64,000 nt of DNA, from positions 62,001 through 126,000 of the forward strand of contig MPCU01000008.1 in NCBI GenBank assembly GCA_001874305.1, read 5' to 3'. The translations under genes were made by a program, and so were the position numbers. The DNA comes from Bacteriovorax sp. MedPE-SWde. Lineage in GTDB: Bacteria; Bdellovibrionota; Bacteriovoracia; Bacteriovoracales; Bacteriovoracaceae. Below, one piece after another: positions 11,919 to 18,225 of this stretch. Below the pieces are notes generated by a model that saw only the letters and a program-made list of their open reading frames with translations, was not told where the DNA came from and did no database searches. Numbering within the stretch: position 1 is the first letter of the stretch; every line of letters begins with the position of its first letter.

Positions 11919-12606
11919 TTTTCCATCTATTGAAGATGCCGATGAGAATGGATTAGTCGCCATAGGTGGAGACCTCCATCCTCAATCTCTTCTTCTCGCA
12001 TACTCCAAAGGGATATTTCCATGGCCAGTCGGTCCAGAATATCCTCTGGCATGGTTTTCACCTGACCCTAGAGGTGTCATAAAGTGCAGTGACATGCATA
12101 TTCCTAGAAAATTAAAAAAAGAGCTTAGAAAGCAAAACCTCAAGGTTACATTTAATAAGAATTTTAGAGATGTCATTGAAATTTGCTCGATTGTTCATGA
12201 AAACTCTGATTCAGGAACATGGATCACTGATGAAATAAAACAAGGCTATATAGATTTTCACGAAGCAGGGCACGCATATAGCATAGAAGTCTGGAATGAA
12301 GAGAACCTCGTTGGAGGACTCTACGGTGTTGTGATTGGAAACTTTATTAGTGGTGAGTCAATGTTTCACAAAGAAACAAATGCTTCAAAGCTTGCATTAA
12401 TAACACTACTGTACAATCTCAAATTGAATGATGTACTCCAACTTGATACACAGATGGTAACGAATATAACAAAGTCGATTGGTGCAACTGAAGTTAAGAG
12501 ATCTGATTTCCTTAAGAATGTTCAAACAGAGATCAAAAAGCCAAAGCTAATTTTTGAAAATTTTATAACAGATATTAAACATCTCTATGCAGTGAAAGAT
12601 TCATAG
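11905..12606 (+). CDS. aat: Leucyl/phenylalanyl-tRNA--protein transferase
   Basis: Aat adds Leu or Phe from aminoacyl-tRNA to proteins with N-terminal Arg or Lys, marking them for ClpS/ClpAP degradation. Diagnostic segments are present: FPWPVGPEYPLAWFSPDPRGVI near the N-terminus, GTWITDEIKQGY, and GGLYGVVIGNFISGESMF. The frame opens at TTG 11890, but ATG 11905 has GAGG 9 bases before it and starts with the expected region (MPIIDFPS), giving 234 residues. It overlaps the end of the ureohydrolase gene by 14 bases and its 3' end overlaps the convergent ferredoxin-like gene by 32 bases. Confidence 0.93.
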   Translation: MPIIDFPSIEDADENGLVAIGGDLHPQSLLLAYSKGIFPWPVGPEYPLAWFSPDPRGVIKCSDMHIPRKLKKELRKQNLKVTFNKNFRDVIEICSIVHENSDSGTWITDEIKQGYIDFHEAGHAYSIEVWNEENLVGGLYGVVIGNFISGESMFHKETNASKLALITLLYNLKLNDVLQLDTQMVTNITKSIGATEVKRSDFLKNVQTEIKKPKLIFENFITDIKHLYAVKDS

Positions 12607-12922
12607 CAGAGTATTCTTTACTAAGAATTTCTTTCATCTCAATACCTTTATCTGTCAATTTGGCACAATCACCACATGAATTACAGATACTCATATTGAT
12701 AGAGATTTCTGATTTCTCTTGAGAGAAGGCCTCAACATGACAACTATCATTTAGTTCGATTAAATCATCTGAAGATAGTCTACGAGAACTATAAGGTGCT
12801 CTTCTTAAGTCTTCAGAGTATGTGAGTCTTTGATTACTCCTCATAAAACTAACAAGTCGAACTCTTTTTAAAAAAGATAAGAAGAACTGCGAAGGTGAAT
12901 ATACTTTCTTATCAAAAATCAT
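12575..12922 (-). CDS. Minimal ferredoxin-like subunit (HycF/EchF/NuoI-like), one cluster
   Basis: A 115-residue protein with exactly four cysteines: C61 (SCHVEAF) and C80, C83, C86 (ICNSCGDC). In a 2[4Fe-4S] ferredoxin each cluster uses three Cys from one CxxCxxC motif and the fourth Cys of the other motif. Here C61 occupies the fourth position of motif 1 ('aCPt.AI') and C80/83/86 the first three of motif 2; the other four ligands are gone, including the last of motif 2, which is T90. One complete [4Fe-4S] cluster is therefore predicted. No transmembrane segment is evident. It is the last gene of a three-gene operon after NuoB- and NuoCD-like proteins, overlapping the latter by 4 bases. Family placement rests on this context and on motif order. 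Confidence 0.65.
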   Translation of the reverse strand: MIFDKKVYSPSQFFLSFLKRVRLVSFMRSNQRLTYSEDLRRAPYSSRRLSSDDLIELNDSCHVEAFSQEKSEISINMSICNSCGDCAKLTDKGIEMKEILSKEYSAMNLSLHRDV

Positions 12923-14451
12923 TTACTTACCTCTTCCATATTCATACCAAGACTTACCCAATCAACAACCATTAAATCAAGATCAGAACTATGGTAACTT
13001 TCTTCAAATATCTTAAGAGTTCTCAAAGTTGGGGTCATAATGTGTAAGCGATCAACTTTCGTTGAATCTTTTCGAAGTGCGGTCAAAAAGTTCACCTCAC
13101 CTGAAGACGTTTCACAATATGAATAATAGATTTGATCATTAGCAGGAGGAGAAAAACTATCCGCTTCCCTTAACCCTTCAGCAATTGGAAAGCTTTCAAT
13201 TATCCTAATGATATTTGAAAATGATTCTTGAACTTCTTCTAGTCTAATAAGAATTCGATCATAAGATGTTCCATTTATACCTAGTGGAACATTGAGTTCA
13301 AGCTCGTCATAGAGATAGAACTTATCATTCTTTCTTAGATCATGGCTTACACCAAAGCTTCTAAGAGGCAGACCTGTATATCCACATTTTAAAGCATTCA
13401 TCCTAGCAGATCTAATATGTGACAATTCCAAAACTCGCGAGAGCCTTGTAATATTACTCTTTAGTTTATCAAAGTCTTTAGTAAATGACTTAATTAATAG
13501 AGAACATTTTCTCTTCCAGCCTTCAGGAAGAATAGTCTCAGAGCATGGGCTTACAACTAAAGGATGAGGTCTCGCGGTCCCAAACTCTAATAAGAGAAGC
13601 TTGAATTGATTTAAAAACTCACGACATTTTAAGTGAGAGTCAACTTCGTCAATAACCTTGAATGAGAGAGATAGATATCTAAAGTTTTCAATAACTTTAG
13701 AGAACTCATATAAGAGCATGCGCTTAGTATTCTCATAGTCCCCTATTTCAAAACCCTGAGATTTCTCAAGAGTTTCACTCCAAAGAATTTGATAAGGAAT
13801 AAATGAGTACCCATTAACATGAGAAATATATTTTCTAATATGTTCAATATTGATTTTTTCAAAGAGCTTTTCTAACCCTAGAAAAACACCTTCCTGTGAT
13901 GCTTTTAATCCAACTATTTTTTTTCCATGAACGGCCATATCAAAGTTGGCCCTCTGGCTACGGATTCCATACTCTGTGAGGTTAAGATTTACAACATCAA
14001 TTCCCTTTTCAAACTGACTTTCAGTTTCTACAGAAATTTTATCTCTACCATCATATGACTTTTCCATAAAAGAAGCTTGAGACTTTTCTACAATCTCCTT
14101 TTGAATTCTTTCATGTCTATAAATTGTAATTCCATATAGCTTCTGAATCTCATTTTCAAAATAGAAGAGACTCGGCCAAATATAAGAGTACGACTGAATA
14201 GTTTGTCCGTATAATAGAGAAACTCCAATATGAAACCTCTTCTCTTTATCAAGATTGTGAAAATGATAAACGATGAGAAAGCTTGCACCTGTTAAATTAT
14301 TCTCACTAGAGAAATTACTTAGGTTACTGAGGTCCAAACAAGTTACACCCTTACAAATAAGTCCACTAGTTCTTTCGTAACTACGAAAGAGTGTATCGAG
14401 CTCTTCTTTTTTTATTATTTCAATTGAGTTAGTAATATTTTTAACTTTCAT
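12919..14451 (-). CDS. NuoCD/HycE-like fused large subunit, catalytic residues lost
   Basis: A 510-residue fusion. Residues 15-118 resemble NuoC (30-kDa subunit), with IWPSLFYFENEIQKLYGI matching 'W..A.W.ERE..D..GI'. Residues 150-510 resemble NuoD/group 4 hydrogenase large subunit: GLEKLFE (192-198) matches the end of 'HRG.EKL.E', RSFGVSHDLRKNDKFYLYDE (364-383) matches 'R.SG...D.R...PY..Y', and YDRILIRLEEVQESF matches '..R...R..E..ES'. The nickel-binding RxCGxC and DPCxxC motifs are absent, and the NuoD 'HPxxHG' and 'HRG' loops involved in quinone binding are also missing. So neither hydrogenase nor quinone-reductase chemistry is expected. It overlaps both neighbours by 4 bases. Confidence 0.72.
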   Translation of the reverse strand: MKVKNITNSIEIIKKEELDTLFRSYERTSGLICKGVTCLDLSNLSNFSSENNLTGASFLIVYHFHNLDKEKRFHIGVSLLYGQTIQSYSYIWPSLFYFENEIQKLYGITIYRHERIQKEIVEKSQASFMEKSYDGRDKISVETESQFEKGIDVVNLNLTEYGIRSQRANFDMAVHGKKIVGLKASQEGVFLGLEKLFEKINIEHIRKYISHVNGYSFIPYQILWSETLEKSQGFEIGDYENTKRMLLYEFSKVIENFRYLSLSFKVIDEVDSHLKCREFLNQFKLLLLEFGTARPHPLVVSPCSETILPEGWKRKCSLLIKSFTKDFDKLKSNITRLSRVLELSHIRSARMNALKCGYTGLPLRSFGVSHDLRKNDKFYLYDELELNVPLGINGTSYDRILIRLEEVQESFSNIIRIIESFPIAEGLREADSFSPPANDQIYYSYCETSSGEVNFLTALRKDSTKVDRLHIMTPTLRTLKIFEESYHSSDLDLMVVDWVSLGMNMEEVSK

Positions 14452-14855
14452 GCCCTATCTCCAATCTCTAGGAAGTGACACAACGAAGTTTTGAATTGTT
14501 CAAATGTAGGAGGGCATCCAGGAATAGCGAGATCTATTTTAAAGTTATCAGCTAGTGACGATACTTGAGAGACTTGATGAAATATACCACCAGAGATCGA
14601 GCAGTTTCCAAAGGCCACTAACTTTCGCTCCCTAGTGCTTATCGCTTCTTGAATCTTAATAAGATCGCTTTGTGCCAATTTTGTCCCTACGACTAAAATA
14701 TCACAGTCAGCAAGATTAGTAGAAAACTCAGGAGAAGCAACCTCTTCCATTGACCAGACACTTGTGATGTCATAGCAACAGCTTCCAAGATACCAGTGAA
14801 TCTTTTCACCTGTGCTCTGGTAAACAAACTTGCTTAACTCTTTTGCGGTTTTCAA
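14448..14855 (-). CDS. NuoB/HycG-like small Fe-S subunit
   Basis: This 135-residue protein, shorter than typical NuoB or hydrogenase small subunits, keeps the four ligands of an N2-type proximal [4Fe-4S] cluster: C26-C27 (GSCCYD), C85 (FGNCSISGG) and C114 (PGCPPTFE). The 'DILVVGT' strand also matches NuoB ('DvmiVaGT'). The start is a TTG with GAGGA 4 bases before it. It is the first gene of the operon and a 13-bp palindrome lies just upstream. It would pass electrons between the NuoCD-like protein and the ferredoxin-like protein. The family call is strong; the role is inference. Confidence 0.82.
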   Translation of the reverse strand: MKTAKELSKFVYQSTGEKIHWYLGSCCYDITSVWSMEEVASPEFSTNLADCDILVVGTKLAQSDLIKIQEAISTRERKLVAFGNCSISGGIFHQVSQVSSLADNFKIDLAIPGCPPTFEQFKTSLCHFLEIGDRA

Positions 14856-14899: not shown

Positions 14900-16303
14900 C
14901 TATCTTATGTAAACACTTACATCTTTCTCTTTCGCTTCAGGATTAAAGATAGGCGTCCATGAGACATCATTAGGAAAGACCAAGTCTTCAGTTTTAGACT
15001 TAGTGCACGATTGCTTTTTCCCAGATACAAAGAGCCAGTTATATATTTTATTATGAAGGGACTTCGCCCCGGAGTCATATTCTACGTAGCGATGATATGA
15101 CAGCCCACTTGTAGATAGACCAGTCATCAGGTTAACTGCACGTTCAAAAGCAAGGTTCATACCTTCTTCAGTGCAATACTTTAACTCCGTTGCCTGATTA
15201 TAAAGAGTCTTCCCGTCCACTGAGTTATAATTTCTAACCCATGCCTTTGTCTGACACTGATATACAAACCCTTTATCTTCAGCATGTCCAAATGCAGAGA
15301 TATACTCCATGAACCAGTGATCTTTTTCGTTATACGTTATATTTGACGCACGCACATATTGACGACATGTTTTAAAAGAATCCCAATACTTTAAATAGAA
15401 TTTATGAAATTCCTTAGGAAGGCTTCCTTCGCCAGATTGCACGAGGTCTCTAAGCTTAAATAGCCTTTCATAGACAGATTCACAGCTCTTTCTCAATGTT
15501 GTAATTTCGTTACTTGAAAATAAGTGACCTTTACCTAGAGCATATTTAATCGCCTTCGTTGGATAGATTTGTCCTATTAGGCGAAATGCTGGATAAGAGT
15601 CACCTCCACTAATAGATCTACCTCTTCCATTTTCTATAAAGCCCTTTACTTCTTTCCAATCTAGTATTTTTACTAACTCTCCAAAGGAGCTAATGTTTTT
15701 AAATTTAGGGTCTAGTGTACTAACTGCAAATAATAACAAGCGAGACTTCCACTTCTTATCACTATCGCATGGGAAACGGTCACAAAACTGCTCTAGGGCT
15801 CCGCCAATTATTTTTACACGTATAGTTTCATCTTGTGGAAACTTACCGCTAGAAAGGTATTGAGAGTCTCCAAAGATGATTACTCTCTGAGGCTTTTTAA
15901 TCTGATCAAGTAACCTTGGAACTATGGCCTCTGTATACGGCGGTCTTTCCAAGTCTGGTCCATAGCTTTTCCAGACATCTTTTTCTTTACAGTATTCATG
16001 TGAATAAAATCTCTTTCCGCTGACCAAATCAAAATCATAGTGAAATCGTGAATTCTCAGGAGTAATTACAACTGCATCAATAAGTTTTCTATCAATATCA
16101 ACCATAGGTTTAAAGTCAAAGAAGAGATGACTTACTGGTGAATCCTCTATATCAACAAAGCGATATTTCTGATGAGTTGAAAACCAGGTACCTGTTGGTC
16201 GAATGATTGGTTTAATAACTTCTTTTTTTGCACAGCCACTAACAAGTAGTGTTAAAAAAAGAATTGAATAAATATGTTTTTTAAATTGACAAATACCTAG
16301 CAT
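14900..16303 (-). CDS. Putative lipoprotein, unknown function
   Basis: A 467-residue protein whose N-terminus MLGICQFKKHIYSILFLTLLVSGC ends in a lipobox (LVSGC), so it is probably lipid-anchored in the envelope. The frame continues upstream to 16420, but that part is the antisense translation of tRNA-Leu and is not coding; ATG 16324 is an alternative start 7 codons upstream. The mature chain has about nine cysteines and several Trp/Tyr-rich segments (WFMEYISAFGHAEDKGF). I recognise no domain. The NuoB-like gene follows 44 bases after its stop, on the same strand. Confidence 0.65.
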   Translation of the reverse strand: MLGICQFKKHIYSILFLTLLVSGCAKKEVIKPIIRPTGTWFSTHQKYRFVDIEDSPVSHLFFDFKPMVDIDRKLIDAVVITPENSRFHYDFDLVSGKRFYSHEYCKEKDVWKSYGPDLERPPYTEAIVPRLLDQIKKPQRVIIFGDSQYLSSGKFPQDETIRVKIIGGALEQFCDRFPCDSDKKWKSRLLLFAVSTLDPKFKNISSFGELVKILDWKEVKGFIENGRGRSISGGDSYPAFRLIGQIYPTKAIKYALGKGHLFSSNEITTLRKSCESVYERLFKLRDLVQSGEGSLPKEFHKFYLKYWDSFKTCRQYVRASNITYNEKDHWFMEYISAFGHAEDKGFVYQCQTKAWVRNYNSVDGKTLYNQATELKYCTEEGMNLAFERAVNLMTGLSTSGLSYHRYVEYDSGAKSLHNKIYNWLFVSGKKQSCTKSKTEDLVFPNDVSWTPIFNPEAKEKDVSVYIR

Positions 16304-16332
16304 AAAGTCCAAAATAATCTTCATCTCATAAC

Positions 16333-16419
16333 GGTTCGGTGTTGGAATTGGTAGACAATGTGGATTTAAAATCCATTGGGCGCAAGCCCGTGCGGGTTCA
16401 AGTCCCGCCCGAACCACCA
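16333..16419 (+). tRNA. tRNA-Leu (UAA)
   Basis: An 87-base tRNA with a perfect 7-bp acceptor stem (GGTTCGG with CCGAACC), T-arm GCGGG-TTCAAGT-CCCGC, a long variable arm typical of class II tRNAs, and anticodon loop TTTAAAA giving anticodon TAA, which reads UUA/UUG Leu. The 3' CCA is encoded. It stands alone, 29 bases from the divergent lipoprotein start. UUA is a frequent codon in this AT-rich genome. Confidence 0.96.
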
Positions 16420-16479
16420 ATTCACTTAGTAATTCTTATCTAAATTATCAGTTTTAAATGGAAATTAATCAAGATGTAA

Positions 16480-18225
16480 TTATGCTGCCGAACGGCCGGT
16501 TTTATCTCTATTAATATAGTCAACTATGTACTGACCTAATACCTCGAGATTCTTCTCACTATTGTTCTCAAAAATAAATCCAAAGCCCTTTGGCCTGTTT
16601 TTCGAGGTTCTCTTGATTGCAAGATTACAGATAATTGGCTCGCTGAACGCTGCCCCATCAATGTAGAGAGTCACTTTCTTATCGCGAATATATTCTTCTT
16701 CGTTAAATCTCGTAACTTCAATGAAGCCACCACCAAGACTAATATTTGTCAGATAGCCCTTGTGCTCATTTCCGTCTATTGAAAAATTAACGAGCTCGTG
16801 AACATCAGCTCTATATTCAGATCTCTCAATCAAGTAGACAGAGTTCTCAGGATTTTCCTTATCTTCACTAATTAACTTACTTTCTGCCGACAGCTCTAAG
16901 CAATCAGATAGAGAAGACCAAGTCCCTGCTCCCTTCTTCTTAATAAGAGAATCAAAGTTTACCTTTCTTGTACTCTTTAACTTTAACATCTCATCAAAAC
17001 GGTAAGGACCTTTAACTCCTTCACCATTATCAATTAACCATATAGCATTATTTGTTACTTCAAATGATTTACCATTCTTTAAATCATCCACACCTAGAAC
17101 TTCTTCAAAGTTCTCATCTCTAGCAGGTGCTGGTGCTTTAGACATTTCGATAATTTTAGCAGCTTCACCAACGGGGGCATCCACAAGTTCTTCAAGAGTT
17201 GGTTTTGGTCGTTCTTCTTGTTGTGCTATTACAGATGCTTCATTTACACGCTTATGTAAGATTGTCATTTTGGTTACGGCCTTATCAAGTTTCGACTTCA
17301 AAACTTTATTTTCCATAACCTGATTCTTATATTTTACGTAGAGCTTATCAAATTTTTCTTGATCAGATTTTGACGACTCTCCATGATCATTAATTTTATC
17401 ATCTAATGACTTAAGAGATTTCTCAACTCGAGTTAGTGTCGCACCTGTATGCTGATTCTCTTTTTCTTTTTCTTCAAGAGTTTCAACTAGCTTCTTATTT
17501 GCCTCAAGTAAGGTAGAAAGAATGGTTTCCATCTTATCTAGTTTACTTAAGTCTATTTCGGCATTACTACTTTTTAACTTTTCAGAGAAGCTCTCAAAGA
17601 GACCCTTTATTTCAGAATTATCAACAGGAAGCTTTTCTTCCTTCGCTTCCCTCTTTGCTTCTTGAATCTCGTTTTTAATTTCATTCTTTAAGGAAATTAA
17701 ATTATGTCCAACCTGTTCTACTGTTGAGTTATCTATACTACTTTTTTCAATGACTTCTGTTATTTCTGATTTAAGAGATGTTTGAATCGATGATTCAAGT
17801 TCATTAATTTTCTGAGAAAAGCTATCTGTCAGCTCTGTTTTAAGCTCTTCAATATTGGTTGTATCACCTGGATTAGAATTGATCTCAACTATTTTAGAAT
17901 CAATCTGATTTAGCTTGTCGTCGATAATATCAACGATTGTAAGATCGACATTCCCTATTTCTTTTATAATAATTTCATCTTTAGGTTTGAAGTCTGGTAC
18001 TTCAATTTTGTCAGGACAAAATAAAGCTTCATTCTTAATCTTTGACGGAATATCGTTATGAGAAATAAGGTGTACCCAACGATCCTCATCTTCATTAAAG
18101 ACAAAGCTGTCTTTAAAGACATTGCCTGCAACGACTTCAACAAAGAGGTCGTTAGCATCCAAATGACCATAATCTTGGCCATTTTTTGCAATAAAGAATT
18201 TGGTTTTCGTTATTTTCTTTTCCAT
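16480..18225 (-). CDS. GYF-coiled coil-GYF-PilZ protein
   Basis: A 581-residue cytoplasmic protein. Residues 5-55 (KFFIAKNGQDYGHLDANDL) and 375-435 (IWLIDNGEGVKGPYRFDEML) are GYF_2-type modules. Residues about 95-330 are a long acidic/basic coiled coil rich in E, K, S and L. The C-terminus (about 445-575) is a PilZ domain with RSEYR (RxxxR) and NISLGG (D/NxSxxG), the residues that bind c-di-GMP. It may therefore be a c-di-GMP-responsive scaffold. It is a single gene, divergent from the methyltransferase gene at 18385. A 25-bp imperfect dyad (18262-18286) lies between them. Confidence 0.78.
   Translation of the reverse strand: MEKKITKTKFFIAKNGQDYGHLDANDLFVEVVAGNVFKDSFVFNEDEDRWVHLISHNDIPSKIKNEALFCPDKIEVPDFKPKDEIIIKEIGNVDLTIVDIIDDKLNQIDSKIVEINSNPGDTTNIEELKTELTDSFSQKINELESSIQTSLKSEITEVIEKSSIDNSTVEQVGHNLISLKNEIKNEIQEAKREAKEEKLPVDNSEIKGLFESFSEKLKSSNAEIDLSKLDKMETILSTLLEANKKLVETLEEKEKENQHTGATLTRVEKSLKSLDDKINDHGESSKSDQEKFDKLYVKYKNQVMENKVLKSKLDKAVTKMTILHKRVNEASVIAQQEERPKPTLEELVDAPVGEAAKIIEMSKAPAPARDENFEEVLGVDDLKNGKSFEVTNNAIWLIDNGEGVKGPYRFDEMLKLKSTRKVNFDSLIKKKGAGTWSSLSDCLELSAESKLISEDKENPENSVYLIERSEYRADVHELVNFSIDGNEHKGYLTNISLGGGFIEVTRFNEEEYIRDKKVTLYIDGAAFSEPIICNLAIKRTSKNRPKGFGFIFENNSEKNLEVLGQYIVDYINRDKTGRSAA

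Follow-up and report, generated by a model that had tools for sequence, protein, structure and literature searches.

A probable eroded second complex I in Bacteriovorax and its relatives

What can complex I subunits do when neither an NADH-oxidizing module nor a membrane arm is encoded beside them? The question is raised by three coupled genes in Bacteriovorax sp. MedPE-SWde, which belongs to the Bacteriovoracaceae, a family of mostly predatory bacteria. The genes lie in a stretch of 64,000 nucleotides (the window; G000:C14:62001-126000) from a genome of 3.76 Mb that is 99.7% complete. Here, G000 denotes the window genome, other G numbers the genomes of relatives, and lower-case g numbers genera. 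A preliminary description had portrayed the genes as a membrane-free complex I/hydrogenase-like operon. From the present analysis, they are probably best explained as part of a second complex I ('type B') that was inherited vertically and eroded to a non-respiratory remnant that is still selected. In the papers searched, no complex I that is duplicated, degenerate or membrane-free was reported, whether for Bacteriovorax or elsewhere.

The operon and its lipoprotein

The three ORFs were found on the minus strand at 12575-14855, with a four-base overlap at both the B/CD and CD/ferredoxin junctions, as previously described. The NuoB-like subunit (B; 14448..14855, minus strand) has 135 amino acids, a TTG start and a match to Pfam PF01058 Oxidored_q6 (E 1.6e-11), and it carries the four cysteine ligands of cluster N2 (GSCC..GNC..GCPP). 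The NuoCD-like fusion (CD; 12919..14451, minus strand, 510 aa) matches PF00346 Complex1_49kDa (E 9.2e-22) and PF00329 Complex1_30kDa (E 3.6e-7). The NuoI-like ferredoxin (Fd; 12575..12922, minus strand, 115 aa) has one [4Fe-4S] site, C...CxxCxxC, with an N6b-type ligand set; its match to Fer4_6 (E 0.027) is below the Pfam cut-off. The best NCBIfam models were NuoB for B and NuoD/NuoCD for CD, not hydrogenase models, and the scores were far under the equivalog cut-offs. Pfam, NCBIfam and the sequence motifs thus uphold the gene identities given in the preliminary description.

The features said to be missing from CD are indeed missing. Its translation has no Ni-binding CxxC pair, and an alignment to Thermus Nqo4 identified neither the HPxxHG quinone motif nor an equivalent of Tyr87 (Thermus numbering). 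No membrane, NADH-module or hydrogenase-maturation genes adjoin the operon, and NuoF (PF01512) had no match anywhere in the window genome or its genus. In a Foldseek search, the AlphaFold2 model of CD (pLDDT = 89) overlaid NuoCD of E. coli (E 8e-25, TM ~0.85), and a comparison with HycE of formate hydrogenlyase gave a TM of 0.85. The window genome also encodes an ordinary complex I, with NuoB-C-D-I on contig C8 and NuoA-H-J-K-L-M-N on contig C11, and without NuoF.

The gene group opens, 44 bp ahead of B, with the gene for a predicted lipoprotein (14900..16324, minus strand, ~474 aa) that has eight invariant cysteines besides the cysteine of the lipobox. A longer version of this ORF runs to 16420; however, a tRNA-Leu gene (16333-16419, plus strand) lies antisense to the extension (16325-16420), which is for this reason considered spurious, and the true start is probably at 16324. 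The AlphaFold2 model of the lipoprotein (pLDDT = 88) was matched by Foldseek to an inorganic pyrophosphatase-like fold (E 3e-8), and residues 93-307 of the model adopt the fold of a family I inorganic pyrophosphatase (VIA Z 18.9, 2.7 Å, 179 residues). While the fold is shared with the soluble enzymes, the catalytic aspartates of DGDPxD are absent: in a HMMER alignment, dgDPlD of the enzyme is replaced by lgePqk in the consensus of the lipoprotein family. Upstream of the lipoprotein, a GYF_2-like protein with GYF and PilZ domains is encoded at 16480-18225 (minus strand).

Erosion of the locus across the family

CD was used as the query against 129 genomes of the order, and relatives were present in most genera. 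About 40 fetched loci share an order of lipoprotein (~500 aa), B, CD, NuoE-F-G where present, NuoI-like ferredoxin, and then aat on the other strand; the lipoprotein adjoins CD in 38 loci. A complete NuoB-CD-E-F-G-I set is found at the locus in genera g4 and g28, and NuoE and NuoF lie beside CD on a short contig in g26. The likeness to complex I that had been noted earlier was right; an Ech or hydrogenase origin is contradicted by the locus itself, where the intact relatives have NuoB-CD-E-F-G-I with HPATHG, which points to descent from NADH:quinone complex I. The locus is fully absent from g27. Lone leftovers of the NADH module were also observed at the locus, NuoF-like in G119 (L058) and g42 (G112/G113), and NuoG-like in G128 (L057).

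HPATHG and the Tyr are intact in five of the five genomes that have NuoE-F(-G) at the locus (G004, G006, G015, G069 and G064), as opposed to HPxxHG in none of the 43 CDs that lack NuoEFG (Fisher 6e-7, kinship ignored). An intermediate is offered by G056, which reads HPATQG and has lost NuoEFG, with a second membrane arm of full size. The motif reads HPITKG in g45 and HPxxKG in Halobacteriovorax (g16), and it is wholly gone in further lineages.

The Fe-S ligands vary more widely. The N2 ligands are retained in the window species, in G049 and G050, and in many genera; within the window genus they are gone from G051 and G052, and about a dozen other genera have lost them as well. Most genera have two ferredoxin clusters, the window genus and g36/g10 have one, and G021, G062 and G053 have none; in many genera the ferredoxin clusters outlive N2. 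Four genomes (G048 of the window genus, G022, G058 and G060) have CD at the locus without B and the ferredoxin. At the ferredoxin position, G021 (L039:10438-10749, plus strand) and G062 (L064:8298-8609, minus strand) encode a 103-aa protein whose two CxxC pairs resemble a zinc ribbon rather than a 4Fe-4S site. The window species and its two closest relatives keep all of the N2 and ferredoxin ligands. As the B proteins of G000 and G050 share no more than 35% identity, this retention suggests continued selection for a redox role in the window subclade.

Across these loci, the NADH module and the quinone site were lost together, followed variably by the N2 ligands, the ferredoxin clusters, NuoB and NuoI. 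The lipoprotein is conserved family-wide and is the most persistent part, the last of the group to be lost; the graded loss ends in lipoprotein-only loci (G107, G110 and G111). The preliminary description had named frameshift decay in sister genomes as evidence against its reading; erosion was observed there, in the form of substitutions and lost genes rather than frameshifts, and speaks in part against that reading.

The three intact genera do not group together in a tree built from canonical NuoH/L/M/N but lie scattered over it. A Dollo count, which allows no regain, places nine losses of NuoEFG among the CD-keeping genomes and gave the same number under several roots. Support was 0.996 for the pairing of G069 (intact) with G001 (eroded) and lower at other nodes, with 0.52 for G004 and G056. 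Between G000 and G049, pN is 0.22 and pS 0.75 for CD, B and the lipoprotein are similar, and the ferredoxin is looser (pN 0.39). The A-like membrane ORF described below has a dN/dS of 0.22 at an unsaturated dS of 1.05. For canonical A, H and N, identity between the same two genomes is 87-90%; the type B genes evolve 4-8 times faster than the canonical subunits, with most dS values saturated. The type B genes are thus under purifying selection, with a constraint far below that on a working complex I.

A probable second membrane arm on another contig

In G004 (g4; L074, G004:C1:212000-231500), two complete membrane arms lie in tandem, with the order A-H-J-K-L-M-N occurring twice. In the window genome, the ordinary nuoN on contig C11 is followed on the same strand by seven membrane ORFs of 96, 294, 151, 85, 453, 305 and 333 aa (G000:C11, about 210,023-215,151). 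The same seven-ORF arrangement lies behind nuoN in more than 20 other genomes and ends at a GYF/TPR protein. Family-level annotation misses the entire second membrane arm: Pfam returned only a sub-threshold NuoK match for the seven ORFs of the window genome, and the conserved Glu/Lys residues of the canonical channels are not recognisable in them. Behind the membrane remnant, a GYF_2-like protein of ~1050 aa with TPR-like repeats was seen at L082:13729-16821 (plus strand); GYF_2-like proteins lie beside both halves of the type B system, one each.

The assignment of these ORFs relies on less eroded arms. The second arm of G056 is 27-44% identical to an intact second arm; H, K and N are recognisable in G076/G077/G078, and H in G119 and G002. 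In a comparison of tiered profiles from intact arms to the tier of the window, H was linked with a probability of 92-100 at every step and J with 57-98. N was linked to the tier before that of the window, A and K part-way, and L and M at the first step only; with hhalign, L and M gave no match past the first tiers, and N gave none in the window tier. The H-like ORF of the window genome still shows NuoH's FFGG motif. Iterative HMM searches from the membrane ORFs of the window genus did not cleanly reach other genera, and the H and L runs, which drifted to unrelated membrane proteins, were not used. Sequence thus supports the H-like and J-like ORFs and, more weakly, the K-like and A-like ORFs, while position, order and size are the sole basis for assigning the L-, M- and N-like ORFs.

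The arrangement is kept even where the ordinary complex I is absent. G028, G026, G019 and G123 have no NuoH and no Oxidored_q6 match, and the only Proton_antipo_M matches of G123 lie in an Mrp-like cluster. All four still carry the seven ORFs, either flanked by mfd and the TPR gene or, at the end of a contig, ahead of the TPR gene. Among genomes in which both could be scored, 40 have CD and the arm, 8 CD only, 2 the arm only and 7 neither (Fisher 6e-4, kinship ignored). The CD-only genomes belong to g36, g10 and g6, and one of the two arm-only genomes is 66% complete. Within genus g5, G019 has CD and the arm; G018 has neither and retains the lipoprotein and a desaturase. An arm-less ancestral state was also considered; the scattered distribution of the genera with intact tandem arms led to its rejection.

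The terms 'membrane-free' and 'soluble' are not upheld by this comparison, given that the genome with the operon also has, following its ordinary nuo genes, seven degenerate membrane ORFs ordered as nuoAHJKLMN; the window system is not demonstrably membrane-free. The preliminary description had named missing subunits encoded elsewhere as evidence against its reading; this applies in part, with the degenerate second arm on the other contig. Separate membrane ORFs were likewise found in sister genomes, mostly eroded.

Compared to respiratory complex I (NDH-1), type B retains the CD fold, the B-CD-(EFG)-I order, the N2 ligands in the window species, and the A-H-J-K-L-M-N order of a membrane arm behind the ordinary operon. 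It differs by the absence of NuoEFG and of HPxxHG/Tyr, by one ferredoxin cluster instead of two, and by membrane subunits that have shrunk (L, 453 versus 675 aa; M, 305 versus 493; N, 333 versus 460) and are invisible to Pfam. An NADH module is equally absent from the 11-subunit complex I without NuoEFG, the kind encoded by the ordinary nuo genes of the window genome; however, the ordinary copy retains the quinone motif and the N2 ligands, along with two ferredoxin clusters and an entire membrane arm, and type B does not.

Candidate roles of the remnant

Two readings would keep the operon apart from complex I. An energy-converting [NiFe]-hydrogenase or Ehr-like complex has in its favor the resemblance of CD to HycE and a gene order, B-CD-Fd, that matches Ech. 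Group 4 [NiFe]-hydrogenases (Ech, HycE/F/G) and Ehr have a similar fold and a small subunit set, and the Ni ligands are absent from type B as they are from Ehr, which keeps recognisable membrane subunits. The descent is different, however, the intact syntenic relatives of type B being NADH dehydrogenases. With NuoD/NuoCD and NuoB as the best family models, no Ni ligands, and intact relatives with NuoEFG and HPATHG at the same locus, the hydrogenase and Ehr readings were rejected as scarcely credible. The soluble electron-transfer module with a new catalytic role that had been proposed earlier is very improbable as well. It would suit the Fe-S ligands kept in the window species, the lack of adjoining membrane genes, and g36, g10 and g6, which keep CD while the membrane ORFs are absent. 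Against this, the window genome and nearly all CD-bearing relatives have the second membrane arm in a constant position, and sister species have lost the redox ligands. Nor is a new catalytic role supported, considering that within the window genus the N2 ligands are missing from G051 and G052 and both Fe-S subunits from G048.

Two further readings accept the descent from complex I, and each is unlikely as a general account. In one, the second complex I is slowly and neutrally being lost and the remnants are debris without a current role. Such decay would fit the very fast evolution of the membrane ORFs and the grading of loss in many lineages down to lipoprotein-only loci and the empty locus of g27. 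It does not fit the full-length ORFs in ~40 genera-level loci with conserved gene order and overlaps, pN well under pS for B, CD, Fd, the lipoprotein and the A-like ORF, the complete Fe-S ligands of the window subclade, or the same partial state reached in parallel about nine times by the Dollo count. In the other, a membrane-tethered electron relay, a ferredoxin on a B-CD scaffold would supply membrane enzymes, for instance a fatty acid desaturase, with electrons, and neither quinone nor N2 would be needed. A desaturase gene (PF00487, E 3e-12) does lie directly behind the ferredoxin in g5, g10, g36 and g46 (L050:7000-8085, minus strand; L059, L061 and L069), with a four-base overlap between the two genes in G019 (L050). 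The outlasting of N2 by the ferredoxin clusters also favors a relay, as does G018, where the lipoprotein and desaturase are left after the loss of B-CD-Fd. In the genera with such fused operons it is a serious alternative; however, neither the window genome nor most genera have a desaturase gene next to the operon, and CD persists where the ferredoxin is absent (G048, G022, G058 and G060) or has no cluster motifs (G021, G062 and G053).

The eroded second complex I is the reading preferred here, and its descent from a complete second complex I can be stated with high confidence. The ancestor would have been a 14-subunit NADH:quinone oxidoreductase, encoded as lipoprotein-NuoB-NuoCD-NuoE-NuoF-NuoG-NuoI by aat and as NuoA-H-J-K-L-M-N directly after the ordinary nuo operon. 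Most lineages then lost the NADH module and the quinone site together, their antiporter-like membrane subunits shrank, and Fe-S ligands disappeared to differing extents, with both arms persisting as intact genes. The window species is left with N6b-like and N2-like Fe-S sites and a shrunken arm on another contig, and it has neither an NADH input nor a quinone motif. Because both sites are missing, NADH:quinone activity in this species is very unlikely.

What the remnant does can be suggested only tentatively. CD may sit on the remnant H, A, J and K subunits, with the periplasmic lipoprotein as a putative partner, and the Fe-S clusters may form an optional layer with a redox role retained in some lineages. 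Relatives in which CD persists in the absence of Fe-S subunits make a purely redox role difficult to accept. Since the NADH, quinone and often the Fe-S sites have repeatedly been lost while the genes remain intact, the system probably does something besides respiration. A membrane-anchored scaffold or sensor that neither pumps nor respires is the favored candidate, at somewhat less than even chances. Slightly more doubtful is the broader idea that complex I has become, in several independent lineages, a non-redox, non-pumping trans-envelope structure of CD, a shrunken arm and a lipoprotein with a dead pyrophosphatase fold, selected for a new cellular role. The joining of both arms in one complex is a proposal, and the persistence of CD without a membrane arm in g36, g10 and g6 counts against it. 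As in pseudoenzymes, a scaffold would have been selected after loss of the active site; the difference is that a whole two-arm, multi-subunit membrane complex is concerned, in parallel lineages.

Complex I is usually seen as either whole or lost. The Bacteriovoracaceae present a natural graded series from a complete NADH dehydrogenase down to one or two proteins, in which the NADH module, quinone histidine, N2 cluster, ferredoxin clusters and antiporter helices were lost stepwise in parallel lineages while the ORFs stayed intact. The question of which part of complex I can serve once electron transfer is gone, and of the order in which its functions are lost, thereby becomes testable. As cultured Halobacteriovorax carries the type B system, such experiments are possible.
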